A DNA stretch of 64,000 nucleotides from Lachnospiraceae bacterium (GTDB lineage: Bacteria; Bacillota; Clostridia; Lachnospirales; Lachnospiraceae), in assembly GCA_017427775.1 (NCBI GenBank), contig JAFRSD010000005.1:62001-126000 (forward strand), read 5' to 3'. Below the pieces are notes generated by a model. That model had not been told where the DNA came from, did not search any database, and saw nothing but the letters and a program-made list of their open reading frames with translations. The position numbers and the translations under genes are program-made. Shown here in pieces: positions 1-58,909 of this stretch (positions within the stretch are counted from its first letter, which is position 1; each line of letters opens with the position of its first letter).

Positions 1-500
1 TTCTGAGCAAGCAGTTCGAGGATGCGGTATTCCTGCCTCGTAAGCGCCGGCGTCTCCGTCCCGTCGATGGTGACCATATGATGCTCTCGGTCCAGTACCA
101 AAGACCGGTACGTAAGATGCGATGCGTTCCGGGAATCGCCTGCTTTCCGAAGCTGCACGCGGATCCGGGCAACGACTTCTTTGATCTCAAACGGTTTCGT
201 AACGTAATCGTCCGCGCCTATACTCAGAACATCCACCTTGGAATCAAGATCGTCACGGGCACTGACAACAATAACGGGTGTCGTGATTCCTTTACCACGC
301 AACGCCTGGAGCACATCCTCGCCGCTCTGACCGGGCAGCGTAAGGTCAAGAAGGATCAGTTGATACTGCTCGAGCGACAGTCTGAGCATGCATTCCGTTC
401 CGGAAAATGCCTGCCCGCACGCAAATCCCTCGCGCTCCAGCGCCTCCTTCAGCAATACGGAAATCTTATTGTCATCTTCTACGATCAATATGTGTTCCAT
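1..500 (-). CDS. OmpR/PhoB-family response regulator, C-terminus beyond window
   Basis: The reverse strand reads from ATG at 500 to the window edge without a stop, giving about 166 residues. A receiver domain fills residues 1-115, with the acidic pair D9/D10, phospho-acceptor D52 in LILLDLTLPG, and K102 in VTKPF. The start of a winged-helix output domain follows (LTRQEYRILELLA). It should act as a phosphorylated cytoplasmic transcription factor, with its sensor kinase probably beyond the left edge. The start follows a GGAGAC-type ribosome site. A promoter at 533-561 reads leftward into the gene. The target genes cannot be read from this window. Confidence 0.9.
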   Translation of the reverse strand, partial: MEHILIVEDDNKISVLLKEALEREGFACGQAFSGTECMLRLSLEQYQLILLDLTLPGQSGEDVLQALRGKGITTPVIVVSARDDLDSKVDVLSIGADDYVTKPFEIKEVVARIRVQLRKAGDSRNASHLTYRSLVLDREHHMVTIDGTETPALTRQEYRILELLAQ

Positions 501-532
501 GGTCTCCTCCGTCCCGGTTTCATTCGGATTTT

Positions 533-4418: not shown

Positions 4419-5330
4419 CTATTCATCTGTACGATTTCCGGCTTTATACCACTTCGGAACGATCCGCCGGAATCCGTCGAAATCTTCAAACGCGGCCTCC
4501 GCTCTTCGAACCATTCCGTCAATATCCTTCTGCCCGAACGGCTCTGCCCATTTGATGGAGAAGAGGGATGCCTGGGCGACATATACCGCATTGGCCTTCC
4601 AGAAACCCTCGGGAACATCGTCGTCGAAATAGGCGTCTATCTGTCCGATGCAGTACGGAATGCTGATTTCCGTTCCGAAACTCTCAAGTTTATAAAATTC
4701 CTCGTACGGGTCGCCGATCTCCCACCGGTTGAAATCGATCACGCCGATGGAACCGTCCGCCATATAAATCAGATTGCCCGGTTGAAAATCACCGTGCATG
4801 TATACCGCCGGCTGCTGCCAGATCTGATCGATATTGTCTTTCACATACTGTAACGCAGTCTCATCCCCGGGAATCCGAAGATCGGAGTTCTCATATCGGG
4901 ACAGCTGCGTCAGTTTCTTCTCTTTCTTCGTCTGTTTCGGCACATCTTCCGGCTCTAACGGAACGGAATGAATCTTTCGAAGGATCTCCCCCGCTTTTCT
5001 TCCGAGCCGGTACTGTTCCTCTTCGGAAAGCTTCGGAAGCATTTCCTCAAGATCGCATCCATATACCCAGGAAAGAAGCATGTAGACGCTCTTTCCGTCA
5101 TTGCAGACGCCAAATGCGACCGGCATCGACATCGGAAAGCCAAGTCTTGCGTATTTTTCAATCACCCGATACTCCCGCAGCTTGGCATCATATTGCGCAA
5201 TATCCGAAATGCGAAGAAGCTGTGTCCTGCCGTCTGCCATTCTGACCTTGTATTTTCGGTCGCTCGACCATCCCTTTTCGACCGGTTCCACATTCTCCCA
5301 GTCTTTGCTGATTGCAATATCCGAAAACAT
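4419..5330 (-). CDS. Aminoglycoside phosphotransferase-family kinase
   Basis: This 303-aa protein has a choline/aminoglycoside kinase fold. The Brenner motif HGDFQPGN lies at residues 179-186, with catalytic D181, and the metal-binding Asp is D199 in VIDFNRWEIGDP. All key residues are present, so it is probably active in transferring phosphate from ATP to a hydroxyl of a small molecule. The substrate is unknown; most chromosomal members are not true resistance enzymes. It is part of the minus-strand run of modifying enzymes, 23 bases after the 82-aa gene. Confidence 0.8.
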   Translation of the reverse strand: MFSDIAISKDWENVEPVEKGWSSDRKYKVRMADGRTQLLRISDIAQYDAKLREYRVIEKYARLGFPMSMPVAFGVCNDGKSVYMLLSWVYGCDLEEMLPKLSEEEQYRLGRKAGEILRKIHSVPLEPEDVPKQTKKEKKLTQLSRYENSDLRIPGDETALQYVKDNIDQIWQQPAVYMHGDFQPGNLIYMADGSIGVIDFNRWEIGDPYEEFYKLESFGTEISIPYCIGQIDAYFDDDVPEGFWKANAVYVAQASLFSIKWAEPFGQKDIDGMVRRAEAAFEDFDGFRRIVPKWYKAGNRTDE

Positions 5331-5353
5331 TCTTTTCTCCCTCCCCGAAAAAA

Positions 5354-5602
5354 TCAGTACTCCGTTTTAACCTCATCCAGTTCAAAAATCTTCTTGAAAC
5401 GTGCCTCATCCTCGGATGTACGGACAACCATTACCTCCGTGAACTGCCCGTTCTTCCGGTTCTTAAACCCTGCGACCTTCTCGCCGGTGCAGATGGAGCT
5501 GCGGATCACGGCATACTGCGTTTCGGGATCATATGCAATCTTCTCGCGCAGATTCTTCTCATAATTCGAAACTCTCTTGGAATTCTTCTTCCGGAAACAC
5601 AT
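5354..5602 (-). CDS. Small conserved Lachnospiraceae protein, 82 aa
   Basis: This is a basic protein with the core YDPETQYAVIRSSICTGEKV followed by AGFKNRKNGQFTEVMVVR. I recall short Lachnospiraceae proteins with this core that are sometimes labelled aspartate dehydrogenase. No dehydrogenase nucleotide-binding motif is visible and the length is far too short, so that label is not supported. The chosen ATG at 5602 has a GAGG site 8 bases upstream; a longer reading to 5674 lacks one. Function is unknown. Confidence 0.65.
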   Translation of the reverse strand: MCFRKKNSKRVSNYEKNLREKIAYDPETQYAVIRSSICTGEKVAGFKNRKNGQFTEVMVVRTSEDEARFKKIFELDEVKTEY

Positions 5603-5713
5603 ATGTAATACCTCACGTGCAAAAACAATCCTTATCCACTGAAGTGTACCGGTTCGTTCCCATTTTCCGTTCAAAAGAATCTTTGAGCATGTTACTCATC
5701 CGGTCCGCTTTCG

Positions 5714-6364
5714 TTATCTTTGAAACTGCTTTCCGAAATTGTTGAGATAGTATGCATACTCTTCGTTTCTGACAAAGACAAATGCGAAGTGGGCATTTTT
5801 CTTCTCTCGCCGAAGAAATCGCAGGTGCTCCGCGACGCATACCATTCTGAACTTATGATTCTCAAAAACGATGATCAGCGGGACATCCGGGGACCCGACG
5901 GAATCCGGCTCCGGACAATCGTCTCCAACGTCTTCAATCAGCCGTAGCGGAATCTTCACCAGTTCGGACAGAAAGAAGGCGTTTTCGTCCGGACAATCCG
6001 CACCCGCCGAGGCAAGATAGATCCTGACCCATTCCTCTCCGAAACCGGCATCGGAATACTGCTCCGCCGAATGTACCGACGGAGAGTATTCCGGAAGTTT
6101 CATCCTCTTACCGTACACAATCTTTTTAATGGATTCAGGCGAAAGAAAGAACTCCTCAGCAAGTTCGAAAACGGACGCCCCGGCGGAATACCGGCTGCAG
6201 ATCAATGCGTTCCGTTTTTTGATCCTGCTGCGGTAACCGGAAGCTTCTCCCCATCCCTTTGCCCCGCTGCGTTTCGGGATGTAGATTGCCTTTCCTTCCG
6301 CGTACTTCTGCACTTCCGAAAGAAGACTTGCGGGGAGAATATCTTTTGCATTTTCATACTTCAT
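5714..6364 (-). CDS. CD3324-family HTH protein with C-terminal extension
   Basis: Residues 1-90 match the CD3324 family: MKYENAKDILPASLLSEVQ, a GWGEASGYR motif, then a helix-turn-helix (AGASVFELAEEFFLSPESIKKIVYGK). Residues 100-216 are an added domain that I do not recognise, with a hydrophobic strand (VPLIIVFENHKFRMVCVAEH). It may be a DNA-binding regulator with a sensing or partner domain. It begins 3 bases after the stop of the kinase-like gene at 6368, so the two are probably translated together. Confidence 0.65.
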   Translation of the reverse strand: MKYENAKDILPASLLSEVQKYAEGKAIYIPKRSGAKGWGEASGYRSRIKKRNALICSRYSAGASVFELAEEFFLSPESIKKIVYGKRMKLPEYSPSVHSAEQYSDAGFGEEWVRIYLASAGADCPDENAFFLSELVKIPLRLIEDVGDDCPEPDSVGSPDVPLIIVFENHKFRMVCVAEHLRFLRREKKNAHFAFVFVRNEEYAYYLNNFGKQFQR

Positions 6365-6367
6365 TCT

Positions 6368-7078
6368 TTAATCCGCCAGTTTGTTCATTCGTGCTTCCAG
6401 TTCGTTGATCGATCTCGTGATGGATTCACAGGATTCCAGGTCATCGATTGAAGCATGCCACATCAATGTGTGAATCCCCTTGAAATACGCCATGCATAAG
6501 AAACGCTCACGGAAGTTCTTAATCTCGATATTCTTCCTCTTCGCGTATTCATACAATTTCTCCGGAACAAGAAGATACGGCTTGTTCAGATCAAGAATCG
6601 CAAAGTCCATTAGGAAATCCATGATTCCCGCGCGGCCCCAGTCAGCACAGTAGGTCTTTCCGGAAGCATCTACGATCATGTTGCAGAAGAATGTATTGTT
6701 GTTGGCCAGGTATCTCTGTCCTTCGCAGTAATCCGCATAATACATGGCCTTTGCGTAAATTTCCTCGAAATAGTCCTTTTTAAGGAATGTCGTTCCGAAC
6801 ATCTGGGTCCAGTTGTGCCAGTACCCTTCCTGCTCCTCGTTAAAGGTCTCGCGGATAAATTCTTTTACAGTTCCGAACGGAGCCTTGTTGTTCTCGTCGA
6901 ATTCACCGTAACCGCTCAGACCGGAAATGTCTGTAGCCGCTATTTCGAAGATCATATCGAAGAAATTCTCATAGCATTTTTCGAACTCTTCCACCGACAG
7001 TTCGTCGGCGTTTCTGCCCTTGGGGCTCATCTCAATCTTATCCCCGGCCAGGTTTCTGATAAAAATATCTCTGTTCAT
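6368..7078 (-). CDS. APH/choline-kinase-like protein with altered catalytic motif
   Basis: This protein of about 236 aa resembles the C-terminal lobe of aminoglycoside phosphotransferases. The second Asp motif is intact (CADWGRAGIMDFLMDFAIL, D146). The Brenner motif HGDxxxxN appears as NNNTFFCN (126-133), so the catalytic His and Asp are both Asn. The N-terminal ATP lobe is short and not clearly recognisable. It may be a pseudokinase or use another chemistry. The start at 7078 follows AAAGGA; another ATG lies 9 bases upstream. It is translationally close to the CD3324-like gene. Confidence 0.6.
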   Translation of the reverse strand: MNRDIFIRNLAGDKIEMSPKGRNADELSVEEFEKCYENFFDMIFEIAATDISGLSGYGEFDENNKAPFGTVKEFIRETFNEEQEGYWHNWTQMFGTTFLKKDYFEEIYAKAMYYADYCEGQRYLANNNTFFCNMIVDASGKTYCADWGRAGIMDFLMDFAILDLNKPYLLVPEKLYEYAKRKNIEIKNFRERFLCMAYFKGIHTLMWHASIDDLESCESITRSINELEARMNKLAD

Positions 7079-7230
7079 GGCAATCATCCTTTCAAACTTT
7101 TGTAATCTGTATCGGCGCCTTACAACCATACTGTAACAGACCGAACAGCCAAAGCATATAGAAAGAACTTTTATAACGGTATTCTACTCAGTCGCAAACC
7201 AATACCGCTTCGTGGCCGGCAGTTTACAAA

Positions 7231-7268
7231 AACCCCGGTCATCTGATTATACCAGATAACCGGGGGTT
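7231..7268 (-). terminator. Terminator of the AraC-family gene
   Basis: AACCCCGGTCATCTG pairs with CAGATAACCGGGGGTT, and TTTTTGTAAA follows on the reverse strand. It lies 22 bases past the stop of the AraC-family gene. The rest of 7079-7290 shows no further gene. Confidence 0.85.
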
Positions 7269-7290
7269 CACGCTACTGTTTATCGTTTAT

Positions 7291-8124
7291 TTATTCCGTT
7301 TTCTTAAGCGGCACCCAGATAAAGGTTCTCACCTCGCTCGAACCGGGTTCCGGAGCGAGATAAACTTCGATGTCATATTCATCCACGAGTTCATAGCCCT
7401 TAAGCGCCGGAAGCCACTCGGACCAGATCTTCGTATTGGTGTCTTGAAGCGTCTTTAACGTGCACGGAAACTGTGCCCAAAGGCTTGCCGGAATCACGCG
7501 GGTCTCGCACCCCTCCGGAACCTCTTCCCACGGAAAATACAAATCCGCAATCCAGTAATCGAAATCCTTTCCGTCCATGTCAAGGCACAAACCGAAGGTC
7601 CCCATGATCGGGCGTTTGTCACCCTGTGCCAGCCACTCATCCCAGAACTTCGGAACCTCCTGATAACTTGTGTCGGAATTAAAGCGTCTCTTCACGCCGA
7701 CGATTGTAAACTGATCTTTTTCTACGATTTGGTAATCCATCATTGATCCACCCTCCATTGTTATCTTGATATGCATCGGGGCAAATGAGCGAAGCAGCGC
7801 TCCCGTTTCCCTGGCCTGGGACGGTGTGATCCCGTGAAACTTCTGAAAGGCCTTCGCAAAACTGTCCGGCGAATCGTAGCCGTAACGGACGGCGACGTCA
7901 ATTACCTTTATGTCCTTTCGGTTCAGTTCCTGGGCTGCCAGCGTCATTCTGCGCGCACGGATATATTCGCCGACAGTCATACCGCACAGTGCACCGAAGA
8001 TGCGCTGGTAATAAAACGGCGACAAGGCCGCTTTGCCGGCAATAACCTCTATGTCCAGATTCTCTGTCAGATTGGCCTCAATGAAATCAATTGATTCCTG
8101 AACGCCTTCAATCCAGCCTTTCAT
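7291..8124 (-). CDS. AraC-family regulator with GyrI-like effector domain
   Basis: This protein of about 277 aa has two AraC helix-turn-helix units at residues 8-105 (LDIEVIAGKAALSPFYYQRI and VIDVAVRYGYDSPDSFAKAF). A GyrI/BmrR-type effector-binding domain follows (about 125-277: DYQIVEKDQFTIVGVKRRF, IWSEWLPALKGYEL). Such proteins usually sense hydrophobic drugs or metabolites and activate neighbouring genes. ATG at 8124 is preferred over an upstream ATG because GGAGC lies 8 bases before it. It probably forms a single-gene unit. The upstream 131 bases hold an AT-rich promoter-like segment and no gene. Confidence 0.85.
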   Translation of the reverse strand: MKGWIEGVQESIDFIEANLTENLDIEVIAGKAALSPFYYQRIFGALCGMTVGEYIRARRMTLAAQELNRKDIKVIDVAVRYGYDSPDSFAKAFQKFHGITPSQARETGALLRSFAPMHIKITMEGGSMMDYQIVEKDQFTIVGVKRRFNSDTSYQEVPKFWDEWLAQGDKRPIMGTFGLCLDMDGKDFDYWIADLYFPWEEVPEGCETRVIPASLWAQFPCTLKTLQDTNTKIWSEWLPALKGYELVDEYDIEVYLAPEPGSSEVRTFIWVPLKKTE

Positions 8125-8255
8125 CCCGGTTGCTCCTTTCTTCTTTGCTCTCTGCAATATCAATATAACGTTCTTTCGGATATAACGCCCGACATTCCGT
8201 GCTCACTTGGTCGGGGTGTGGAATGCCCGTCATTTCCGCAGTTTTTCAGTCCGGT

Positions 8256-9017
8256 TCAGTGTGTCCTTTCTTCCCCCGACACCTCATATGCCGTATATTC
8301 ATGATCAAGTTCATATCCGAGTTTCTCCGCGAGACGAACGGAATTCCTGTTCTGGGCATCCCAGCTCGGATACAAACCTTCCTCCAAACATCGAAGGATC
8401 AATGCAGCGCACACGATTGTCGCAAGCCCTTTTCTGCGCTCTTCTTCTACCGTATCAACCTCGATCTCGATGCCTTCCCGGTACCTCGTATAGGAGGACG
8501 CTCCGGCTACGATCCTTCCCGATTTCAGAATGACCATGCCTCTGCCGATTCTAAGATACTGCTCCTTACTTTCGAAGGAGGAAACGAAATCCGCCGTTAC
8601 CGGATTTGAAAGACACATATCATAGATGCTCTCATCAATCGCCTTTAGCTTATATCCGTCCGGTAGTCTGCTGACCATGTTTCGTAAAGCTTCTTTATCA
8701 AACCGGGTGTCCTTTTTGATGGCGTACCTGGTGACTTTCTTCGCCTCCGGAAAGCACGTTTCAATGCAGGCTTCCCACGCCTTATTCTGTGGCGTCATGA
8801 TCACAAACCCGTCCGGCTTGTTTCTGACAAGTTCCGGATCCGGTTCTCCTGCGTAAAATGCAAAGCATCCCACATAAGCCATCGCAGATTTGGGCGATTC
8901 CGGATTGGTAACATAAATCTTTCCCATGACTTTCTGCAGGCAGGAATAAATTAGCGTTTCCTCCCAGCCTTCAAAAAGACGGGTGACTTTAGATGTGTCT
9001 GTTAATTCGTAGATCAT
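8256..9017 (-). CDS. GNAT-family N-acetyltransferase
   Basis: This protein of about 253 aa resembles the PF12746-type GNAT family. The acetyl-CoA site is IEVDTVEEERRKGLATIVCA and the C-terminal motif is WDAQNRNSVRLAEKLGYEL. The N-terminal half is a long, less conserved domain. The substrate is unknown. The start is uncertain: MIYELTD at 9017 has the family-like beginning, while an ATG 39 bases further up overlaps the end of the YcaQ-like gene. The two genes overlap or nearly so and are probably cotranslated. Confidence 0.75.
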   Translation of the reverse strand: MIYELTDTSKVTRLFEGWEETLIYSCLQKVMGKIYVTNPESPKSAMAYVGCFAFYAGEPDPELVRNKPDGFVIMTPQNKAWEACIETCFPEAKKVTRYAIKKDTRFDKEALRNMVSRLPDGYKLKAIDESIYDMCLSNPVTADFVSSFESKEQYLRIGRGMVILKSGRIVAGASSYTRYREGIEIEVDTVEEERRKGLATIVCAALILRCLEEGLYPSWDAQNRNSVRLAEKLGYELDHEYTAYEVSGEERTH

Positions 9018-48212: not shown

Positions 48213-50882
48213 TTACTGTTTCCCGAGATGTGCAAGCTGTTCCTCAACCTGCTTCATCATCGCGGTGTATTTCTCAAGCTTCGCGCGTTCCTCGGCAATC
48301 TTCGCCTCGGGGGCTTTGGATACGAAGCGCTCGTTGCTGAGCATGCCGTTTACACGGGCGAGCTCGCCGGTCAGACGCTCCTTTTCCTTCTGCAGGCGCT
48401 CAATCTCCTTAGCGATGTCTACAAGATCCGAAAGCGGCATATAGATGGTCGCGCCGGCGATCACTACGGAAACCGCATCGGGCTCAATGCCCGTCTTATC
48501 ACTCTGAACCGTTACCTCGCTTGCGCTTGCAAGAGCCGCGAAGAAGTTTCTGCTGCCCTCGAAAATGCTGCGGATATGCTCCGAATCGGATACAACGAAT
48601 ACCTTAGCCTTGCGGGACGGCGGAACGTTCATTTCGCTTCTGCGTGCACGCATTGCGGTTACAGCCGCCTTAATGAGCTCAACCGCTTCCTCTTCCTTCG
48701 GGAAGTCAAGCGCGGCGTCAAACTGCGGCCAAGCGGAGATCATAATGGACGTATCGTCGGTCAGAACGCCTTCGGCATCCTTCAGAGTACGGTAAATCTC
48801 CTCGGTAACGAACGGCATGTACGGGTGCAGAAGTTTCAAAGATTCGGTCAGAACGGTGCGGAGCGTCCAGATCGCAGCCTTCTTCGACTCCGTGTCCTCG
48901 CCGTACAGACGGGGTTTCACCATCTCGATATACCAGTCGCAGAACTCTTCCCAGATGAAATCATAGATCTTTCCAACCGCAATACCGAGATCGAAGTTCT
49001 CCATGTTCTCGGTAACTTCCTTCGTAAGGCCGTTGGCCTTCGAAAGGATCCAGCGGTCGGCATCGGTCAGAGAAGCGGGATCAACGCTCGTCACCTTGCC
49101 GTCCTCACCCATCTGCTCCATATTCATCATGATGAAACGGCTGGCGTTCCATACTTTATTCGCAAAGTTACGGCTTGCCTCCACACGTTCCCAATAGAAA
49201 CGCATGTCATTGCCGGGCGCGTTGCCGGTTACAAGCGTGAAACGGAGTGCGTCGGCACCGTATTTGTCGATCACTTCGAGCGGATCGATACCGTTGCCGA
49301 GCGACTTGCTCATCTTACGGCCCTGCGAGTCTCTTACGAGGCCGTGGATCAGAACCGTCCTGAACGGAACCTCGCCCATATGCTCGAGACCGGAGAACAT
49401 CATACGGATTACCCAGAAGAAGATGATGTCATAGCCGGTTACAAGCGTGCTCGTCGGATAGAAGTACTCGAGTTCCTTCGTCTTCTCGGGCCAGCCGAGC
49501 GTTGAGAACGGCCACAGTGCGGAGCTGAACCAGGTATCAAGCGTATCGGGATCCTGACGCATCGGCTTTCCACATTTCGGGCAGATCGCGCTGTCTTCCT
49601 TCGTAACTACCATCTCACCGCAGTCGTCACAGTAGAAAGCGGGAATCCGGTGGCCCCACCAGAGCTGACGGCTGATACACCAGTCGCGGATGCCCTCAAG
49701 CCAGTGGTAATAAGTCTTGTCAAAGTGTTCGGGAACGAACTTCGTCCTGCCCTGCTTTACCGCTTCGATCGCGGGACCTGCAAGAGGTTCCATCTTTACA
49801 TACCACTGCATCGAAACGCGGGGCTCGATCGTGGTGTTACAGCGGGAACACGTTCCTACGTTGTGGCTGTAGTCTTCAATCTTTGTAAGGGCGCCGCAGG
49901 CCTGAAGGTCCTTAACAATGGCCTCACGCGCTTCGTAACGGTCCATTCCGGCGTATTTCGGATAATCGTCAACGATCTTAGCGTCGGGCGTCAAAACGTT
50001 CACTACGTCGAGATTATGACGTAATCCTACCTCATAGTCGTTCGGATCGTGTGCGGGCGTGATCTTAACTACGCCGGTACCGAATTCCATGTCAACGTAA
50101 TCGTCGGCGATAACCGGAATCTGACGTCCTACGAGCGGAAGCGTGATCATCTTGCCTACGCAGTCCTTATAACGCTCATCGTTCGGATTTACCGCAACGG
50201 CGGTATCGCCGAGCATCGTCTCGGGACGGGTCGTTGCCATCTCGATATAACCGCTGCCGTCCGTATAAGGATAACGCAAATGCCAGAAATGGCCTGCCTG
50301 ATCCTCATAGTTAACCTCGGCGTCGGAAATCGCCGTAAGGCAGTGCGGGCACCAGTTACCGATGCGGTTGCCGCGGTAGATCAGTCCCTTATTGTAAAGG
50401 TTAACAAATACTTCCTTAACTGCCTTGTTGCAGCCCTCGTCCATCGTGAAACGCTCACGGTCCCAGTCACAGGATGAACCCATCTTCTTAAGCTGCGAAA
50501 CGATACGGCCGCCGTACTGGCGCTTCCACTCCCAGGCTCTCTCGAGGAATTTCTCACGGCCGATATCCTCTTTTTTTATGCCTTCCTGTGCCATTGCAGC
50601 AACGATCTTCGCCTCGGTCGCGATCGACGCGTGGTCGGTTCCGGGAAGCCACAGCGTCTCATAGCCCTGCATGCGCTTAAAGCGGATCAGAATATCCTGC
50701 AGCGTGTTGTCAAGGGCATGACCCATATGCAGCTGGCCGGTAATGTTCGGCGGCGGGATCACGATCGTGTAAGGCTTCTTGTCCGGACGAACTTCGGCAT
50801 GGAAATACTTCTTGTCCTGCCAGAACTGATACAGTCTGTCTTCAATCCCTTTGGGATCATAGGTTTTTGCAAGCTCTTTCAT
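48213..50882 (-). CDS. valS: Valyl-tRNA synthetase
   Basis: This 889-aa class I synthetase has the HIGH motif as PPNITGQLHMGHALD, the KMSKS motif as GRKMSKSLGNG, a zinc-binding part with CPKCGKPM, and a C-terminal coiled-coil arm (EIERLQKEKERLTGELARVN). It joins valine to tRNA-Val. The reading frame extends upstream through the leader, but ATG 50882 with GGAG 7 bases before it is the true start. A T-box riboswitch controls it. Confidence 0.97.
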   Translation of the reverse strand: MKELAKTYDPKGIEDRLYQFWQDKKYFHAEVRPDKKPYTIVIPPPNITGQLHMGHALDNTLQDILIRFKRMQGYETLWLPGTDHASIATEAKIVAAMAQEGIKKEDIGREKFLERAWEWKRQYGGRIVSQLKKMGSSCDWDRERFTMDEGCNKAVKEVFVNLYNKGLIYRGNRIGNWCPHCLTAISDAEVNYEDQAGHFWHLRYPYTDGSGYIEMATTRPETMLGDTAVAVNPNDERYKDCVGKMITLPLVGRQIPVIADDYVDMEFGTGVVKITPAHDPNDYEVGLRHNLDVVNVLTPDAKIVDDYPKYAGMDRYEAREAIVKDLQACGALTKIEDYSHNVGTCSRCNTTIEPRVSMQWYVKMEPLAGPAIEAVKQGRTKFVPEHFDKTYYHWLEGIRDWCISRQLWWGHRIPAFYCDDCGEMVVTKEDSAICPKCGKPMRQDPDTLDTWFSSALWPFSTLGWPEKTKELEYFYPTSTLVTGYDIIFFWVIRMMFSGLEHMGEVPFRTVLIHGLVRDSQGRKMSKSLGNGIDPLEVIDKYGADALRFTLVTGNAPGNDMRFYWERVEASRNFANKVWNASRFIMMNMEQMGEDGKVTSVDPASLTDADRWILSKANGLTKEVTENMENFDLGIAVGKIYDFIWEEFCDWYIEMVKPRLYGEDTESKKAAIWTLRTVLTESLKLLHPYMPFVTEEIYRTLKDAEGVLTDDTSIMISAWPQFDAALDFPKEEEAVELIKAAVTAMRARRSEMNVPPSRKAKVFVVSDSEHIRSIFEGSRNFFAALASASEVTVQSDKTGIEPDAVSVVIAGATIYMPLSDLVDIAKEIERLQKEKERLTGELARVNGMLSNERFVSKAPEAKIAEERAKLEKYTAMMKQVEEQLAHLGKQ

Positions 50883-50897
50883 GTTAAACTCCTTTCT

Positions 50898-51087
50898 CTG
50901 TGGGTGCGCGCCCTTTGAGCCCCTCGCGAACTGCGTTCGCTCGGTGTACGTGCGCTCGGAACCTGCCGCAGACTTCGTCTGCTCCTGTACGGATGCGTTA
51001 CGCTCACCGGAAACTTCGTTTCCGTGAGGCGTATCGTATCCGCACACCGGCATCCGCCGGGCAGGTTCTCTCGCTTAGCGCGCACAG
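50898..51087 (-). repeat. Palindrome-rich 190-nt element in the valS leader
   Basis: The segment between the T-box terminator and the valS start is closed by CTGTG-GCGCGC (50898-50911) and GCGCGCACAG (51078-51087). Inside, GAACCTGCC (50959-50967) pairs with GGCAGGTTC (51060-51068). Short perfect hairpins with 3-base loops lie at 50926-50940, 50968-50982 and 51009-51023. CTCAC/GTGAG (51003-51007, 51024-51028) extends the last. It is not part of a normal T-box and looks like an inserted repetitive element or a structured RNA. Confidence 0.7.
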
Positions 51088-51091
51088 AAAT

Positions 51092-51354
51092 GCCCCTCGT
51101 CGTATAAGGACGAGGGGCTGTCGTGGTACCACCTTATTTCGCAGCAGATGCTGCCTCTTTACGCCGCTCATATAAGCAGCTCATCGTTAACGGGATTACC
51201 CGGAGACCTCTACTTCACTGGGGTTCGAAATCTCAGCTCCGAAGCTACTTCCGTTCCTCCGTTTCCGAACCGGTCTTTCAGCCTTGAACCGGTCTCTCTG
51301 GCGGTCGGTTGAAACATACTCCTCTTCATCTCAGCCTTTGTGTAAATCAATTAT
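51092..51354 (-). promoter_or_regulatory. T-box riboswitch of valS
   Basis: The conserved T-box AAGGTGGTACCACG lies at 51122-51135 on the reverse strand. The terminator GCCCCTCGTC (51092-51101) with GACGAGGGGC (51109-51118) follows it. Stem I carries AGAGAG and the loop GAAGTAGCTTCGGAG, giving GUA (51246-51248) as the likely specifier, a valine codon. Uncharged tRNA-Val should stabilise the antiterminator and turn valS on. A TTGACA promoter lies just upstream. Confidence 0.88.
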
Positions 51355-51431: not shown

Positions 51432-52883
51432 CTAAACCTCCCGCACCAAGTTCTGCACCCAGACGCCTTTCTTTACGAGAATAAACCCGATCAGGCACTT
51501 TAAAAGGTCAACCAGTTGTACGAACAGATAAAGTTCAATCACCGGAAGATCCGTATAGGAACACAGGACAAGCGCGAACGGCACGCTGATACACCACAGG
51601 AACACGCTGTCGAACAGGAATGTAACGAATGTCTTTCCTCCCGTACGAAGCGTAAAATACGTCGCGTGCATAAACGCAAAGATCGGCATGCAGACGGCCC
51701 CGATCTGAATAAAACCTGACGCCAGCGTGCGCACATTATCCGTCGTGTTGTAAAGCATCGGGAACAGCGGCGCAAGCAGGAACAGAATTCCTCCGAGAAG
51801 CGCGCTCGAAGCAACGGAAAATGCGATCAGCTTCGTGTCGGTATCCTTTGCCTCCTCCGTCTTGCCTGCTCCGAGAAGCTGCCCGACCATGATCGCCACG
51901 GCGCTTCCCATCGCGATAAATACGACGTTGAAAAGGTTTGTGATCGTACTCGAGATATTGAGCCCGGCCACAGCATCAAGTCCGCGCCTCGAGTAGCACT
52001 GGTTGAGAACCGCCATACCGCATGACCAGAGAATCTCATTAAACATGAGCGGCATGCCCTTTGCGGTGATCTGCCCCGCGAGCTTGCCGGGAATCAAAGG
52101 AGGCTCGCACATAACGGCATCGCTGTCGTCCTGTTTCTTTCGAAAGAGACGCTTTGTGAAACGGGGGATTCGATACAGTCCGGAAGCGAATTTCATCCGC
52201 GCAGTATGCGTATGCGTCCAGATAATGACAACGGCAGCCTGCACGAAACGGCTGATCACCGTTGCATATGCCGCACCGGCCACACCGAGCCTAGGTGCAC
52301 CGAGCTTTCCGAATATAAGCACATAGTTCAGTCCGAGATTGACTACGACTGCCGCAAGACCGGCAACCATCGGGACCCGTGTTTCGCCGCATTCACGAAG
52401 CGTGCTTGCGTATACCTCTTCAATACCGAACGGAATGAGTCCGACCAGCATGATGAACAGATATTCCTTGCCGTATTGCAGCACCAGTTCCGGAGACTGT
52501 ACGGAATCCGCGCTGTCATGCAGATAAAGGCTCATCAGCGAGTGGTTGCCGAAATACAGTACGGCTATGCCGACCGCAACCAGGAACATGCTGATCATCA
52601 TTTTGTACCGGAAGGAATAGCGGACACCCTCGTGGTCTCCTTTGCCGTAGAACTGCGCGGCATAGATTCCCGGCCCCGCCAGCGCACCGAACAGTGCAAG
52701 ATACAGTACGAACATCAGCTGGTTTACGATGGAAACGCCGGACATTGACTCCGTTCCGACGCTTCCGATCATGATATTATCTAACAGACTTACAAAATTG
52801 GAGATGCCGTTCTGGATCATGATCGGCACCGCCACGGTTAAAACTTTCTTATAGAATTTTCTGTCACCTATTAACTTACTCAA
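51432..52883 (-). CDS. MATE-family multidrug efflux transporter
   Basis: This protein of about 483 aa has roughly 12 membrane helices in two MATE halves (VLTVAVPIMIQNGISNFVSL and ITAKGMPLMFNEILWSCGMA). Such exporters expel drugs or metabolites using a sodium or proton gradient. The start is probably TTG at 52883, 8 bases after GAGGG, giving the beginning MSKLIGDRKFYKKV; an upstream in-frame extension has no ribosome site. A GAGGTGGC/GCCACCTC hairpin (52919-52949) separates it from the preceding gene. Confidence 0.87.
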   Translation of the reverse strand: MSKLIGDRKFYKKVLTVAVPIMIQNGISNFVSLLDNIMIGSVGTESMSGVSIVNQLMFVLYLALFGALAGPGIYAAQFYGKGDHEGVRYSFRYKMMISMFLVAVGIAVLYFGNHSLMSLYLHDSADSVQSPELVLQYGKEYLFIMLVGLIPFGIEEVYASTLRECGETRVPMVAGLAAVVVNLGLNYVLIFGKLGAPRLGVAGAAYATVISRFVQAAVVIIWTHTHTARMKFASGLYRIPRFTKRLFRKKQDDSDAVMCEPPLIPGKLAGQITAKGMPLMFNEILWSCGMAVLNQCYSRRGLDAVAGLNISSTITNLFNVVFIAMGSAVAIMVGQLLGAGKTEEAKDTDTKLIAFSVASSALLGGILFLLAPLFPMLYNTTDNVRTLASGFIQIGAVCMPIFAFMHATYFTLRTGGKTFVTFLFDSVFLWCISVPFALVLCSYTDLPVIELYLFVQLVDLLKCLIGFILVKKGVWVQNLVREV

Positions 52884-52918
52884 AACACTACCCTCAATAA
52901 TCCTTATAACAAACTCAT

Positions 52919-52949
52919 GAGGTGGCCGCCCTTTACGGGATGCCACCTC
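52919..52949 (-). terminator. Hairpin after the helical-repeat gene
   Basis: GAGGTGGC (52919-52926) pairs with GCCACCTC (52942-52949), with CCC/GGG inside. No clear U-run follows, so it may be a weak terminator or an mRNA-stability element between this operon and the MATE gene. Confidence 0.45.
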
Positions 52950-52982: not shown

Positions 52983-53828
52983 CTACGCGTCTCTGTAATT
53001 CTTCTTGAGCCGGCTGACGGTCTCTTCGAACAGCCACCAGAAGCCGCCGTCTTCGTCGTCTGCGGTCTCTTCGCGGTCCTTCAGTTCCATCAGGCGGAGT
53101 ACGTTGATATACTCGGGCGAGTACTCACGGTTCTCCTCTAAGAAATAGAACTGGTTCTCGAGGATCCGCATGACCTCGGTCTCATCCGAATATTTCATCA
53201 GCGCGGCGTTGAATTCCTGTTCCATTCCGCCGATCTTCAAAGCATACAGGTACTGACACAGGCTTTCCTTCATGGCACCCTTCTGGTACGCGATCAGGAA
53301 ATACTTCGCGGCATTCTTGAACATACCGTTCTTGGCAAGCAGCACCGCCATATTGTGGTATGCCTTTGCCTGGTCCTCATCGGGTACATAGATGAAATCG
53401 CGGTCGTCCAGAAGATTCCGGTATTCAAGCATTGCCTCACGTGTCTTGCCGTAACGGAGGAACGCATCGGCATGCCTCTTCTTACGCTCAATCGGCAGCA
53501 TGTCGAAGTAACTGTCGATCTCCGCGATCAGTTTATTGATCTCCTCTTCCGTGTAGTAGTCGGTACTACAGAAAATGGAAACCACAAGATCCTTGATGCC
53601 CGCATTCCGGTCCATCAGCTGCTGCAGGAAATCCGCGCGCTCGCTCATGCCGAGCTCGTTCCGGATCCAAGGCACAAGCTGCCGCTCCGACAGATCCTCC
53701 TCCAGCGTTTCAATGTTGTGGTAGAGGTAATAGCACAGCTCTTCCATCGTATAGACCTTGGTCCCGGTGGACTGGAAGAAATACGGTTCTTTTGCTTTGT
53801 TTCCGATACAGAAGATCAGTCTTCCCAT
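52983..53828 (-). CDS. Helical-repeat (TPR-like) protein linked to the DUF5716/DUF5717 pair
   Basis: This protein of about 281 aa starts MGRLIFCIGNKAKEPYFFQS. The rest is helical with TPR-like segments (KAYHNMAVLLAKNGMFKNAA, KYFLIAYQKGAMKESLCQYL) and an acidic end. I recall it as a neighbour of DUF5716/5717 genes in Lachnospiraceae. It has no enzyme motif and may be an adaptor for the Hsp70-like protein. The start at 53828 follows AAAGGAGG. Confidence 0.65.
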   Translation of the reverse strand: MGRLIFCIGNKAKEPYFFQSTGTKVYTMEELCYYLYHNIETLEEDLSERQLVPWIRNELGMSERADFLQQLMDRNAGIKDLVVSIFCSTDYYTEEEINKLIAEIDSYFDMLPIERKKRHADAFLRYGKTREAMLEYRNLLDDRDFIYVPDEDQAKAYHNMAVLLAKNGMFKNAAKYFLIAYQKGAMKESLCQYLYALKIGGMEQEFNAALMKYSDETEVMRILENQFYFLEENREYSPEYINVLRLMELKDREETADDEDGGFWWLFEETVSRLKKNYRDA

Positions 53829-53925
53829 AGTCTGTGCCTCCTTTCCCATAAATCTGCGCGCTGTTCCGCGTCATTCCGCGGATTCACCCTTTCCGGCTTA
53901 TGCCGGCAAATGCGACGCCTGCGCG

Positions 53926-55185
53926 TCAGATTTCAACAATCTTCTCCCATACCCGGTATGTGTTCGGGTAGAACTGTCCGAATCCGAGATCCTTCACGGT
54001 AATTACCGCCGTCTCCCGGTCCAGACACCGTATTCCGATGGAAACACGCGTCGTCTTATTCTCGCGTCCGTGCAGGTTCTTCAAACTAACCACAACATGC
54101 TTGGAATCCTTCTTTACGGTGTGGTAGATGGAGAAATAAACCTCCTCGGTATCATCAAGAATACCTACGGTCTTTGCGTTGACCTCGCTCCAGCGCGTGC
54201 CGGCGCGGACCATCGGATAATCCGCGATCTGATTGTCCTTAAACATCCGGATCGCGATGGTCGAACGGATCATATCTTCGGTGAGGAACAGGAAGTCCCT
54301 CATCTCTTCGTCATTCTCATACAGGCCGAAATAAGCGGCTCCTTTGGCGTACAGGTTCATTCCCTTGAACACGCGTCGCCCGGAACAGAGAGCCTTCAAA
54401 ACATCATCGGACCAGTTGCTTTCAAATCCCTTACCCGTGACATATACCGTCGACAGAATCTGGCGGTATAATACCTTGTCCGTAATGGTACGGAAGCAGT
54501 ATGCCAGCTGGTTGTCGGGCATCGTTTCAAGCATATTTTCGTCAAGAAGATTGCTGAGATCCTTGATCTGTGCCGTCACCGTGATGGGGGCAACCTTCTT
54601 GGCTGTCGAAAGCTGCGTATAGAACAGGCCGTTCTCGTTAAAATCGAACAGACCGACATCGTTGACCCAGAGCTCTTTCTTCTGGCGGACGGCATAGAAC
54701 ATAAAACTCTGCAGATGGCTCCGCACGCGGATGCTTTCATGCCGTATGCCCGTTGTTTCCATCGCCGCCTCGACAAGCTGAATCATCTTATCGCTCGGGT
54801 CGCGCATGGAAATGACAACCTTATCGATCGGATCGTTCTGGTACTTCTGCCGAAGCACCGTCATGATCTTGCGGAAGAACCTTTCAAACAGGTTCTGCGG
54901 CGTATATTCCGTATCGTGGATGTATACGCTTTCGTCCGCTTCCGCCTTCTGGATCAGATTGTCAATGAAGAACCCGGCGTTACGGTTCTTGCAGCGTACG
55001 GCCTCTTCACCGAAAAGCCAGTCGCCGCTGTCGTTCCGTACGCACAGCGCCGTCGGGATCAGGTACTGCCCGCCCGCTGAAGAAACACTGACGGACTCCG
55101 GTTCTTCACCATCCCTGCTCACCGCGATCTGCGTTGTCTCCGGGGATAAGTCAAATCCTATGACAATCGGTTTTGTATCCGGCAT
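53926..55185 (-). CDS. DUF5716-like Hsp70/actin-fold ATPase
   Basis: This protein of about 419 aa has an actin/Hsp70-like ATPase fold: a phosphate-1 loop (VIGFDLSPETTQIAV), an Hsp70-like IPTALCVRNDSGDWLFGEEA, and an adenosine-type motif (VYVTGKGFESNWSDDVLKAL, then NLYAKGAAYFGL). A C-terminal beta-type region follows, shorter than in DnaK. It could be a specialised chaperone or polymer-forming ATPase. GGAGGAAGG precedes the ATG at 55185. It lies between the giant DUF5717-like gene and the helical-repeat gene. Confidence 0.75.
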   Translation of the reverse strand: MPDTKPIVIGFDLSPETTQIAVSRDGEEPESVSVSSAGGQYLIPTALCVRNDSGDWLFGEEAVRCKNRNAGFFIDNLIQKAEADESVYIHDTEYTPQNLFERFFRKIMTVLRQKYQNDPIDKVVISMRDPSDKMIQLVEAAMETTGIRHESIRVRSHLQSFMFYAVRQKKELWVNDVGLFDFNENGLFYTQLSTAKKVAPITVTAQIKDLSNLLDENMLETMPDNQLAYCFRTITDKVLYRQILSTVYVTGKGFESNWSDDVLKALCSGRRVFKGMNLYAKGAAYFGLYENDEEMRDFLFLTEDMIRSTIAIRMFKDNQIADYPMVRAGTRWSEVNAKTVGILDDTEEVYFSIYHTVKKDSKHVVVSLKNLHGRENKTTRVSIGIRCLDRETAVITVKDLGFGQFYPNTYRVWEKIVEI

Positions 55186-55266
55186 GATACCTTCCTCCAA
55201 TCCCAAGTACTGTGTATTACCGTCCTCCGGCTGCCGCCTCCGCGAAAGCCTTCAGACTCCCGAAAA

Positions 55267-58200
55267 CTATTCCGTGATCTCACGGAACAGCTGGGAAATT
55301 GCAAATTCATCTTTGATGTAACGGTCAAGCAGCGCTAACGCCTTGTCGCGGTCTCCTTCCTTCTCGGAAGCAATAATGCGGTTGATCTGGGCGAAACGGC
55401 TTGTGGATTCATTGTTCTTGTCAAGCGTTCCGACTAAGGTCGTCTTCTCGGATATCACATTTTCCTCATCGGACTCGTCCGTGATAATGTACTCGATCGT
55501 CTCGCCGTAGAACAGAACCAGTTCCTTCACGAAGATACCATAGCAGATGTCACGCATCGGAACGTCCCTCTGCTGGCGTTTCCCTGCCACGCGGTACGAA
55601 TAATGAAGCGTCACGCGGTGCTTCGGGTTGGTGCGGTATTCGATCAGACGTTTGTCCTCGAGGCTCTCCGGCAGAGCGAAATACTTGCAGAGCCGTAAGA
55701 ATTCCGGAAGGACTTTGCCGCGGCTTTCCATTCTGGTCAGCCAGTACTCCGCGAAATCGCGGTCCTCGGTGGAAAGATCCTCCGCCTCGGCACAGAGCTT
55801 CAGCAAAGCAAGAATACAAATGTCATATTCGTCAAGGTTCGTATCCTTCTTCATGATATTGACCGTTTCCTCGGAAATCGGCGTATCAAAGAGAAGATAC
55901 TTATAGGCCACATACGTCATGTATGCCTTGCACAGCTGACGGTTGCCCATCGGGTTATAGTATTTGCGGAATACGGCGTCACCGTAAGGCAGATAAGCCT
56001 CCGTGAAGAGGATCTGCGCAAGCAGACGCTCATCCATCTTCTCGGTATCGATCTGGCGGTCGGTAGCCTCCTGCCAAAGCGTATAGAGATCTACGGTGCG
56101 TCCCTGATAATTCTCAAGAAGAACCGCAAACAGACGCGGACTGCGGCGTCCCTGACGGAATACGTAATACATCAGGTCGGTCAGGAAGACGATATTGTCC
56201 GCCAGCAGCTCCTGCGGAATCTCCGCGCAGAACCGCTCAAGGTACTTAATATCTATGGTACGGTATCCGTATGTCTGCATCAGCTCAAGCGCCTTCTTGT
56301 GGGCGTTGCGCTGGATCAGCATGCCAATCATCCGGCTTCGCTGCTTATCGGGGACAAATGACCAGTTCAGCGCCTCAAACATCGCTTCCAGTCTCGAGTC
56401 CTCAAGACTCTCGCTGAAGTTCAGAATAAGTGCCCGGTTCAGCTCATCCGAGAAAACGGAGCGGAGTCCCGGAATCCGGGAGGCCTTCTTACGGAGTTCT
56501 ACCGAGTATGCGTCGGTCTTCTTCTCCTTCAAAGCCTTTTCTGCAAGGGCAAGCAGGATGCGGTCGCTTCCGGGGTTCATCTGGAACGCTTCCTGGAAGC
56601 AGTCTTCTGCATTCATCAGCTTGCGGTCTTCGTACGGAATGCCGTGCAGATAACGGTTGTGCTTTTCGTCCATCAGCACGATCACCGCGTGTTCGGTATA
56701 GATATCCACCTGCGCCACACCACCGACGAACGGAACGATAACCTCTTCGTCAAACTCGCGATGCGCAACGCATACGTAACGGATGCCGGGCGCCGAGCAA
56801 CGGATCTCGTGACGGAACGCGATACCCTCGAGTCCGTTCAGAAATTCCTTCCGAAGCTGCTCGTCGTTCATGCACTCGTTGTACAGGATCGTCAAGAACG
56901 GGTCGTTCTTCCGTTCCCGCATCGCCGCAAGCGCATATTCGGAAATCTTATTCTTGTAAATGTCGTAAGCGTCACGGTTGCTTTCCTTATGCATTACGAT
57001 ATTCGCGTAAAGATAGGAAAGACGCTTGTCATGAAGCTTGCTGTTATAAGCGAAATATGTCAGAACAGCCGGCTCAAGCACTTCCTCAAGATCGCTGCTC
57101 TTCGTGTACATGTAGTATTCATACAGTTCCGGAATGCGAAGCTGCTCTTCCACGCCCTTCTGATACCATACGGCGTACATCGGGTCTTTCTTCTTCGCCC
57201 GAATCAGCATCTGGCAAAGTGCGGAAAGCGCTTCCTTCAGCTGGAACTGCTTATAAATCCCGGTCAATACGAGATAATAGAGATCACGGTATTCCTTAAG
57301 CCGTTCCGCAAGATACGAGAACTGCAGCGCAGCCTCTCTCTCGAGGTAGCGGTGTCTTACGGCAAATGCGATCGTCTGCACTTCAAACATACCCGGCTCA
57401 TGAAGCAGTGACGGCTCCTCATTCACAAGCGCCGCCGCGCTCACGAAAAGGAACGGCGAGCGGTTTCCGTCATCATACATGCCGCGCAGTTCGTCGAGCT
57501 TTAAACGGCGGTTCTTCGCGTAGCGCGAATCCAACTCGAGAAGCAGAAGTCCCGGGACGAAACGCGCGTCCTCCTCGCTGCAGAGAATATATAACTGCTC
57601 CATCAGGTCGCCCTTGTTGGCAGACGGCAATTCCGTGCTCAGGTACAGGTACAACGCCTTAACATAGGTTCCGTTGCCCTTCCACTCCGCGTCGGTAATG
57701 GCGCGAAGTCTCGAATTGGCTGCGCTTTCACGGCCGGCAAGACGGTCCAGATGAACGCGGTACAGACGGAGCATGATCTCCGGCTGCGCGCCGGATGCCT
57801 CTAACTGCGCAACGAGGTTCTCGGCCTCGGCAACATAACGGCCCACGGAAATATGATTCATACGGAACGCGAGGAAGTTCTCGCACAGTCTGCTGAATGC
57901 TTCCTTCCGTTCATGACGCCGGATCATCGGTTCCGGATCGGGAATCATCTTATCGCAGGAAACCGTGATGTGGATCTGCTGGTTCTGCGCCTCGATCGCG
58001 ATCGTCGCGGTACTGCTGCCGTACCCGAGTTTCTCGGCGATTATGGAAAATGTGATATCGCACCGGTTATCCCGGAAACTTTCGGTTTTGATCTGTTCGC
58101 GGTCCACAACAAGAAACTCCGCAGAGGAGGTAATTCTTGCGTTGACATATCCCCAGGTGCTCTTCGTAAGTTCAATGCGTCCGGATACGGGCACGCCGGT

Positions 58201-58812
58201 GATCGTGTAATCCATCCGGTCACGGTCAGCCTGTAAAACAACACCCATCTTCTTTCCGGTAGCGACAAGGAATTCTTCCATCGCGCGGTCGCTCGCGTGG
58301 CTCTTACGGAGAAGTTCAAGAAGGAATACGCTCTTTGGTTCATGATACTGCAGGAACGGAAGGAACGCGGGATCATTATATAAGCGGAGTGCCTCATCCC
58401 AATGATAACGGGCAAGAGACACGAACTGGTTCATATCGGAAATGGATCCTTCGGAGGATACGAGGGAGGGCTCGCTGACCGTGATCTTGTACGGAAGCGA
58501 AATCTCTCCGCAATCGGTGATAAACGTGATCTCTCCGTTGATCTCTTCGCAGCTCAGGATATACTCTCCGCGGACAACGTACTCCACGGTGTTGTTTACG
58601 CCGACAAACTGCGGTGTGGTGATCTCCAGGACGCGGTTATCGGAGCACACGATACCCTTCATCGTAACACCGGTACTGTTGGTAATTCCGATCCTGCCCG
58701 TCTGTCTGCGCCACATCTCCGCCGAAAGGACAAGCTTCTCTTTGGACAGAATGATACGCGGAAGTTCGTACTCAATAATGCCGCGTGAAATCTTTCCGAT
58801 TTTCTCTTTCAT
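55267..58812 (-). CDS. DUF5717-like giant solenoid protein, 1181 aa
   Basis: This cytoplasmic protein has no signal peptide or membrane helix. Residues 1-110 form a beta-sandwich-like domain (SRGIIEYELPRIILSKEKLV), a second beta-domain lies at about 200-290 (ITGVPVSGRIELTKSTWGYV), and from 300 to 1080 an alpha-solenoid of TPR-like helices follows. A last domain near 1085-1150 is beta-rich. The family is DUF5717-like by recall. It starts the operon with DUF5716 and the helical-repeat gene, from the promoter at 58881-58909. Function is unknown; a scaffold for the Hsp70-like partner is an inference. Confidence 0.75.
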   Translation of the reverse strand: MKEKIGKISRGIIEYELPRIILSKEKLVLSAEMWRRQTGRIGITNSTGVTMKGIVCSDNRVLEITTPQFVGVNNTVEYVVRGEYILSCEEINGEITFITDCGEISLPYKITVSEPSLVSSEGSISDMNQFVSLARYHWDEALRLYNDPAFLPFLQYHEPKSVFLLELLRKSHASDRAMEEFLVATGKKMGVVLQADRDRMDYTITGVPVSGRIELTKSTWGYVNARITSSAEFLVVDREQIKTESFRDNRCDITFSIIAEKLGYGSSTATIAIEAQNQQIHITVSCDKMIPDPEPMIRRHERKEAFSRLCENFLAFRMNHISVGRYVAEAENLVAQLEASGAQPEIMLRLYRVHLDRLAGRESAANSRLRAITDAEWKGNGTYVKALYLYLSTELPSANKGDLMEQLYILCSEEDARFVPGLLLLELDSRYAKNRRLKLDELRGMYDDGNRSPFLFVSAAALVNEEPSLLHEPGMFEVQTIAFAVRHRYLEREAALQFSYLAERLKEYRDLYYLVLTGIYKQFQLKEALSALCQMLIRAKKKDPMYAVWYQKGVEEQLRIPELYEYYMYTKSSDLEEVLEPAVLTYFAYNSKLHDKRLSYLYANIVMHKESNRDAYDIYKNKISEYALAAMRERKNDPFLTILYNECMNDEQLRKEFLNGLEGIAFRHEIRCSAPGIRYVCVAHREFDEEVIVPFVGGVAQVDIYTEHAVIVLMDEKHNRYLHGIPYEDRKLMNAEDCFQEAFQMNPGSDRILLALAEKALKEKKTDAYSVELRKKASRIPGLRSVFSDELNRALILNFSESLEDSRLEAMFEALNWSFVPDKQRSRMIGMLIQRNAHKKALELMQTYGYRTIDIKYLERFCAEIPQELLADNIVFLTDLMYYVFRQGRRSPRLFAVLLENYQGRTVDLYTLWQEATDRQIDTEKMDERLLAQILFTEAYLPYGDAVFRKYYNPMGNRQLCKAYMTYVAYKYLLFDTPISEETVNIMKKDTNLDEYDICILALLKLCAEAEDLSTEDRDFAEYWLTRMESRGKVLPEFLRLCKYFALPESLEDKRLIEYRTNPKHRVTLHYSYRVAGKRQQRDVPMRDICYGIFVKELVLFYGETIEYIITDESDEENVISEKTTLVGTLDKNNESTSRFAQINRIIASEKEGDRDKALALLDRYIKDEFAISQLFREITE

Positions 58813-58880: not shown

Positions 58881-58909
58881 ATTGTAACACAGCGCTTCGG
58901 ATTTGTCAC
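58881..58909 (-). promoter_or_regulatory. Promoter of the DUF5717/DUF5716 operon
   Basis: On the reverse strand GTGACA (58904-58909) and TACAAT (58881-58886) are 17 bases apart, directly after the rplT terminator. Confidence 0.6.

Follow-up and report, generated by a model that had tools for sequence, protein, structure and literature searches.

A near-universal Lachnospiraceae operon encoding a lidless, putatively non-hydrolysing Hsp70-like protein

Three adjacent genes and the predicted folds of their products

We analysed a stretch of 64,000 nucleotides (the window) from a Lachnospiraceae bacterium (assembly GCA_017427775.1, contig JAFRSD010000005.1, positions 62,001 to 126,000) that carries a three-gene operon, lying consecutively on the minus strand between rplT and valS. 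The operon encodes a DUF5717 protein of 1181 amino acids (aa; 55267..58812), a DUF5716 protein of 419 aa which we interpret as a lidless pseudo-Hsp70 (53926..55185) and a 281-aa tetratricopeptide-repeat (TPR) adaptor, referred to here as G3 (52983..53828). An initial annotation of the window had the gene lengths right, and its naming of the first two products is upheld by Pfam matches far above the cut-offs. The window proteins are clear members of DUF5717_N (PF18984; E = 9.7e-229, 761.9 bits) and the C-terminal family DUF5717 (PF18983; E = 5e-76, 256.2 bits; cut-off 25 bits for both), and of DUF5716_C (PF18980; E = 2.4e-90, 302.9 bits against a cut-off of 34.7), all of which Pfam describes as being of unknown function. 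NCBIfam returned nothing for DUF5717 or DUF5716, and its matches to G3 were all far under cut-off. The DUF5716 start was placed at an ATG (55185) preceded by GGAGG, the longest open reading frame beginning earlier at a TTG (55206); that of G3 begins at 53849. A hydropathy scan found no transmembrane-like segment in any of the three window proteins.

The AlphaFold model of DUF5716 has a two-domain Hsp70 fold (pLDDT 93.2, pTM 0.88) consisting of a nucleotide-binding domain (residues ~5–300), which is predicted to adopt the actin-like fold, and the beta part of a substrate-binding domain (SBDbeta; ~305–419). The Hsp70/actin-type fold proposed at the outset thus reappears in the predicted structure. 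The best structure matches of the model are DnaK and Ssz1, a fungal Hsp70 that does not hydrolyse ATP (Foldseek, VIA), and the VIA alignment runs from residues 6..419 of DUF5716 to 2..503 of DnaK (7krv), spanning the SBDbeta. Judging from their titles, the 50 structure matches listed are all of the Hsp70 type or near it, which does not exclude actins. There is no alpha-helical lid (SBDalpha): no helix of four or more residues occurs past residue 297 in the 419-aa model. Simple sequence searches show little of this. The HSP70 Pfam family gave no match at E ≤ 1 to the window protein, a single-sequence phmmer search of the PDB gave none at the same threshold, and the DUF5716_C model does not cover the first ~121 residues, which include the start of Hsp70 lobe I. 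When the PF00012 profile was run against the window's own genome, DUF5716 was not matched; the matches were DnaK and a partial one (L057, G000:C5:121064-121726; E = 1.3e-16) in a 343-aa frame. Here and below, L and G numbers are our handles for loci and genomes.

The DUF5717 model (pLDDT 87.5, pTM 0.59) begins with two PapD/MSP-like beta-sandwiches (residues ~20–124 and ~193–288), followed by a helical solenoid (293–665 and 736–1052) interrupted by an inserted beta part (667–731), and ends in a C-terminal beta part (1054–1127). The long solenoid had been foreseen, together with two or three beta-domains where the model has four beta parts. In the structure search only residues 16–291, which hold the two N-terminal sandwiches, gave good matches, and the solenoid and later beta parts were barely tested; TM-scores for the whole model were just 0.07–0.13 because it has many domains. 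A DUF5717 profile found no match at E ≤ 1 among PDB sequences. The combination of beta-domains and helices had raised the idea of an alpha-2-macroglobulin-like protein, which was dropped: the window protein has no transmembrane-like segment, and no such protein is among the 50 top structure matches, although the latter excludes nothing. One locus (L142:7387-9945, in G563) encodes an 853-aa DUF5717 that is missing the N-terminal beta-sandwich part and is still followed by DUF5716 and G3.

As a single sequence, G3 matches Pfam TPR families weakly (best E = 0.0079), but a 50-row G3 profile finds TPR structures with a best E of 2e-33, to an engineered TPR protein, in agreement with the helical-repeat protein originally described. 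The TPR part corresponds to profile residues ~121–194; the N-terminal region is conserved and has no TPR match. DUF5716 and G3 are joined in a single open frame in at least four of 80 sampled genomes, G415, G431, G454 and G450, which were picked for G3-matching frames of 690–727 aa. The fusion proteins are 713, 684, 723 and 709 aa long, respectively (684–723 aa; L147:6246-8384, L148:5834-7885, and, on the minus strand, L149:6077-8245 and L150:6818-8944). Natural fusion is good evidence that DUF5716 and G3 act together.

A degenerate nucleotide site and a larger operon with four Hsp70s

Comparisons between relatives are based on 80 named loci, which are the best 80 of 589 confirmed relatives and not a random draw; many are titled Lachnospiraceae or its genera (e.g. 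Anaerocolumna, Blautia and Butyribacter). Alignment A3 covers 79 of the 80 (L070 is cut), and A4 and A5 cover 55 and 49, picked for full length and spread. Most gene starts are longest-frame starts. Residues are counted in DnaK numbering, and since DUF5716 is ~15% identical to DnaK, single columns may be misplaced.

Lys70, the phosphate loops and the other DnaK residues named here serve ATP hydrolysis. Lysine occupies the Lys70 position in none of the 80 DUF5716 rows and in none of 14 orthologues (Hsp70-2) from a larger operon described below, as opposed to all 38 of the Hsp70-1, Hsp70-3 and Hsp70-4 sequences encoded beside the latter, so that loss of the catalytic lysine is, on this alignment, already present in Hsp70-2. 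Phosphate loop 1 keeps an acidic residue at the Asp8 position (Asp in 75 rows, Glu in five) and has mostly lost Thr11 (retained in two of 80) and Thr12 (six of 80). The Glu147 position is His in 66 of 80 and Pro148 survives in one. In phosphate loop 2 the acidic residue is Asp in 49 rows and Glu in 23, with Gly171–173 found in 4, 14 and 2 of 80, respectively, and Thr174 in four. The adenosine-loop Gly312 is present in 80/80, Gly313 in 0/80, and a connect-2-like Gly-Ala is kept; lobe IIB is shortened, with DnaK residues 199–201 falling in gaps in every row. The nucleotide motifs reported in the initial annotation are therefore partly present: the catalytic position has no lysine, and most of the phosphate-2 glycines are gone. 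Because of that missing lysine and the degenerate phosphate loops, its label 'ATPase' is probably wrong: nucleotide binding is possible, whereas ATP hydrolysis of the Hsp70 type is unlikely. Sequence and model agree with a lidless, putatively non-hydrolysing Hsp70.

Genomes from other families of the same order usually hold at least two DUF5716-like matches (20/23), and we retrieved 17 loci from 15 genomes. These reveal a larger operon with the order DUF5717, Hsp70-1, GrpE-domain protein, Hsp70-2, Hsp70-3, Hsp70-4 with a VWA domain, and G3 (TPR). The full set lies on a single strand in 11 loci, one in each of 11 of the 15 genomes, with gaps that are mostly under 60 nucleotides (nt) and at most 974 nt. 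DUF5717 is often split in these loci, its N-terminal part being encoded by a gene of its own, which G730 carries on a different contig. As for the remainder, L042 has 6.9 kb between Hsp70-3 and Hsp70-4 and is cut by the retrieved stretch, L047–L050 (two genomes) have the genes scattered over several contigs, and L051 is a short contig. In L038 both Hsp70-4 and G3 are in two frames (6343-8384 and 5208-6231, minus strand), reflecting early decay or an assembly error.

The example annotated with Pfam is L045:5056-19221 (minus strand). Hsp70-1 matches HSP70 (E = 1e-71), the next protein has a GrpE domain at residues 507–637 (E = 4e-12), Hsp70-2 matches both DUF5716_C (E = 1e-28) and HSP70 (E = 5e-18), Hsp70-3 matches HSP70 (E = 2e-60), Hsp70-4 combines HSP70 (E = 3e-93) with a subsequent VWA domain (E = 6e-10), and G3 has many TPRs. 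The four HSP70 matches end at positions 493, 413, 477 and 501 of the 599-position profile and, because they stop this early, probably none of the four proteins has a lid. The sequence alignment of the L045 Hsp70-2 (an h2 orthologue) with BiP reaches into the substrate-binding domain of the latter, and the Hsp70-2 of L038 is the sister of DUF5716. Hsp70-1, Hsp70-3, Hsp70-4 and the GrpE protein are all absent from the window operon. With DUF5716 nested within Hsp70-2 and the gene order held in common, the larger operon is probably the ancestral form, and it is very probable that DUF5716 is a pseudo-Hsp70 descended from Hsp70-2. Searched across the class, the helical N-terminal portion of the GrpE protein gave one weak match in 293 genomes (E = 4.6e-4), in a sample that contains none of the source genomes and has no positive control.

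Distribution, neighbourhood and a fourth gene

Of the 298 genomes sampled from the family, 295 (277 of the 280 genera) have a DUF5716_C match, in nearly all cases just one, with two in G602, G633, G641 and G672. The genomes without it are G419 and G472, both also without DUF5717, and G478, in which DUF5717 lies on contig 67 and ends 40 bases short of the contig edge. The phylum sample gave 5/398, all from the family and including the window's genome, while the order sample gave 29/57, six from the family and 23 from other families. DUF5717_N was found in 57 of 117 genomes of the order (14 from the family) and 14 of 293 of the class, made up of 13 from the family and one weak match below cut-off; this is the single match to DUF5717 outside the order in our samples. 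Neither protein was found in 14 named control genomes. These samples of phylum, class, order and family bear out the lineage restriction that had been suggested.

The three genes also keep close company. G3 was found in 78/80 family genomes (missed in G472 and G478). DUF5717 and G3 each occur in 78 of the 80 named loci and all three genes in 77, with identical order and strand in every one of those 77; L070 and L074 run into contig ends, and the third incomplete locus, L069, is taken up below. All three are likewise present in 35 of 35 short family loci (L001–L035, the best profile matches, L001 being the window). A neighbourhood survey thus finds the genes together rather than apart and, along with the four fusions, fits the proposal that they are dedicated partners. 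Within the retrieved DNA of the named loci, valS lies downstream of the operon in 28, and infC and rplT are found in 11.

In 60 of the 80 named loci there is a fourth gene, encoding a protein of ~400 aa which is a coiled coil as judged by eye (e.g. L066:12142-13365, L103:12134-13315 and L052:15937-17142). It stands directly after G3 in 58, overlaps the end of G3 in L107 and is one gene further on in L083. It belongs to no Pfam family above cut-off, and hydropathy indicates two transmembrane-like segments in 61 of 62 members and three in the other, a count which, like alignment A2, leaves aside the unrelated rows L058 and L065. A six-row profile found it in 32 of 80 family genomes, always within ~430 nt downstream of G3 (coordinates compared by eye). 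Among the loci with the larger operon it is also present in L038, L046 and L052, followed there by valS. In one genome, three related tandem genes of ~500–530 aa, forming one sequence cluster, come directly after G3 (L126, from ~12069 onward).

In the window, the place that this membrane-hairpin gene holds in 58 of the 80 named loci is taken by a gene for a MATE-family transporter (51432..52946, minus strand; Pfam). Next come a T-box leader (51103..51341, minus strand; Rfam, 110.9 bits), which is the expected regulation for an aminoacyl-tRNA synthetase gene, and just downstream of it valS itself, our synteny marker (48213..51053, minus strand, longest frame). Upstream of the operon, between rplT and the DUF5717 gene, the initial annotation had placed a promoter. 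The sigma-70-like sequence is there (58881..58909, minus strand; GTGACA-N17-TACAAT with TG before the second hexamer), and such sites are no commoner in the region than chance (six observed against 5.8 expected from shuffles), leaving a promoter at 58909-58881 plausible.

A proposed reduced Hsp70 machine and its rivals

The operon appears to be Hsp70 machinery with a degenerate core, chaperone-like and so far concealed behind 'unknown function' labels. It would have arisen by reduction from a chaperone machine with several Hsp70s. Nucleotide binding by DUF5716 is probably weak or structural, with no cycle of hydrolysis, and the protein would act as a permanently assembled scaffold or holdase in the manner of Ssz1, its lidless SBDbeta loosely holding a partner peptide or client. 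On the grounds of adjacency and natural fusion, G3 would be its direct partner, the two forming a fixed pair on DUF5717. The latter, with tandem PapD/MSP-like sandwiches and a TPR-like superhelix in the predicted fold, would be a large platform suited to hold peptides or proteins, while any ATP-driven folding may be left to the cell's ordinary DnaK. We consider this scaffold or holdase function to be evenly balanced between right and wrong. Where present, the hairpin coiled-coil protein would tether the assembly to the cytoplasmic membrane, and since its gene follows G3 the assembly would probably be located there in many relatives; that its work is done at the membrane is a tentative proposal which we somewhat doubt.

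The excerpted text of PMC7083937 describes Ssz1 as having no lid, binding ATP without being able to hydrolyse it, and taking a pseudo-substrate from Zuo1. DUF5716 differs in being bacterial, in coming from a four-Hsp70 operon of its own, in having no Lys70 equivalent and in being accompanied by TPR and PapD-like/solenoid proteins. Moreover, Ssz1 works in the fungal ribosome-associated complex (RAC) with a J-protein, and none is encoded beside DUF5716 in the window operon. From DnaK it is set apart by the missing alpha-lid and catalytic lysine, and by the failure to match HSP70 in Pfam. We found no literature on DUF5716 or DUF5717 in open-licence PMC, and the main text of a paper on DnaK paralogues (PMC11019930) contains neither 'Lachnospir' nor 'Clostridi'.

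Several observations weigh against these proposals. No DnaJ domain was detected in DUF5717, G3 or the fourth gene (Pfam, E ≤ 1; J-proteins encoded elsewhere were not looked for), and the profile for the fourth gene left 48 of 80 sampled family genomes and the window's own genome without it, which counts against membrane work. Seven of 80 DUF5716 rows and three of 56 DUF5717 rows contain a stretch above the hydropathy threshold. L069, where DUF5716 (L069:3136-4479) has another gene in the upstream place of DUF5717 and is cut before G3, is the only one of the 80 loci to lack DUF5717 upstream without a contig end to explain it. The loss of hydrolysis itself rests on an alignment at ~15% identity to DnaK, and catalysis by unusual actin-fold enzymes can depend on different residues. 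In 28 of 80 DUF5716 rows a lysine in fact stands two columns away from the Lys70 position, with an arginine there in another 12, so that, at least in this alignment, there is no fully conserved substitute.

That lysine, the acidic residue of phosphate loop 1, the invariant adenosine-loop glycine and the confidently predicted Hsp70/actin fold are what a working ATPase would have in its favour, one driving a chaperone cycle or a filament with catalytic residues supplied otherwise or by a partner. Set against the His at the glutamate position, the widespread loss of Pro148, the phosphate-2 glycines and Thr174, and a lysine lost throughout the h2 orthologues yet kept by their neighbours, we regard this as very unlikely. 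On a filament in particular, the analysis turned up evidence pointing neither way. The conservation pattern admits another reading, namely that DUF5716 is an Hsp70 relic switched by a nucleotide or metabolite and signalling through G3 and DUF5717. The 13 invariant positions over the 80 rows include Gly251 (adenosine loop), Phe254 and Asn277/Lys281-Gly-Ala, and lobe II is slightly more conserved (0.515) than lobe I (0.454) or the SBDbeta (0.452). However, a protein interface would account for the conserved patch just as well, and the operon has no recognised output domain, which makes a sensor unlikely.

By gene grammar, the nearest printed relatives are the GTPase-centred (GAP1-N2) conflict systems that the excerpted text of PMC7159879 describes as including HSP70, GrpE, a second HSP70 without a peptide-binding domain and FNIII-TPR/DnaJ proteins. 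The larger operon shares with them neighbouring HSP70 paralogues, a GrpE domain and beta-sandwich and TPR genes, as would suit an anti-invader device. Against this, the operon is near-universal in the family, mostly in single copy and often near housekeeping genes, unlike patchy defence systems, and the three window proteins have no PADLOC match (E ≤ 0.01), although the flanks here were not scanned for GTPases; a role in conflict is accordingly highly improbable. PADLOC does match Hsp70-3 and Hsp70-4 (PDC-M61B) and the long G3 (PDC-M71B, PrimPol), in ways that look like generic Hsp70 similarity and TPR similarity, respectively.

Returning to the pseudo-Hsp70 scaffold, a broader scenario can be sketched, possible although we incline against it. 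One order of Clostridia may have evolved a relay machine of four Hsp70s, one of them with a VWA tail, alongside a GrpE-domain protein of its own, a TPR adaptor and a platform of the PapD-like/TPR-superhelix kind. The Lachnospiraceae would then have pared this machine down to the one Hsp70 that cannot hydrolyse ATP, giving a bacterial counterpart of RAC in the core genome of the family. The Lachnospiraceae rank among the major families of gut bacteria, and a near-universal, mostly single-copy and uncharacterised chaperone-like operon among them represents a sizeable annotation gap. Comparison with the larger operon provides a natural series in which the Hsp70 that was retained is the catalytically degenerate member of the set, and the role of non-hydrolysing Hsp70s thereby becomes directly testable in bacteria.
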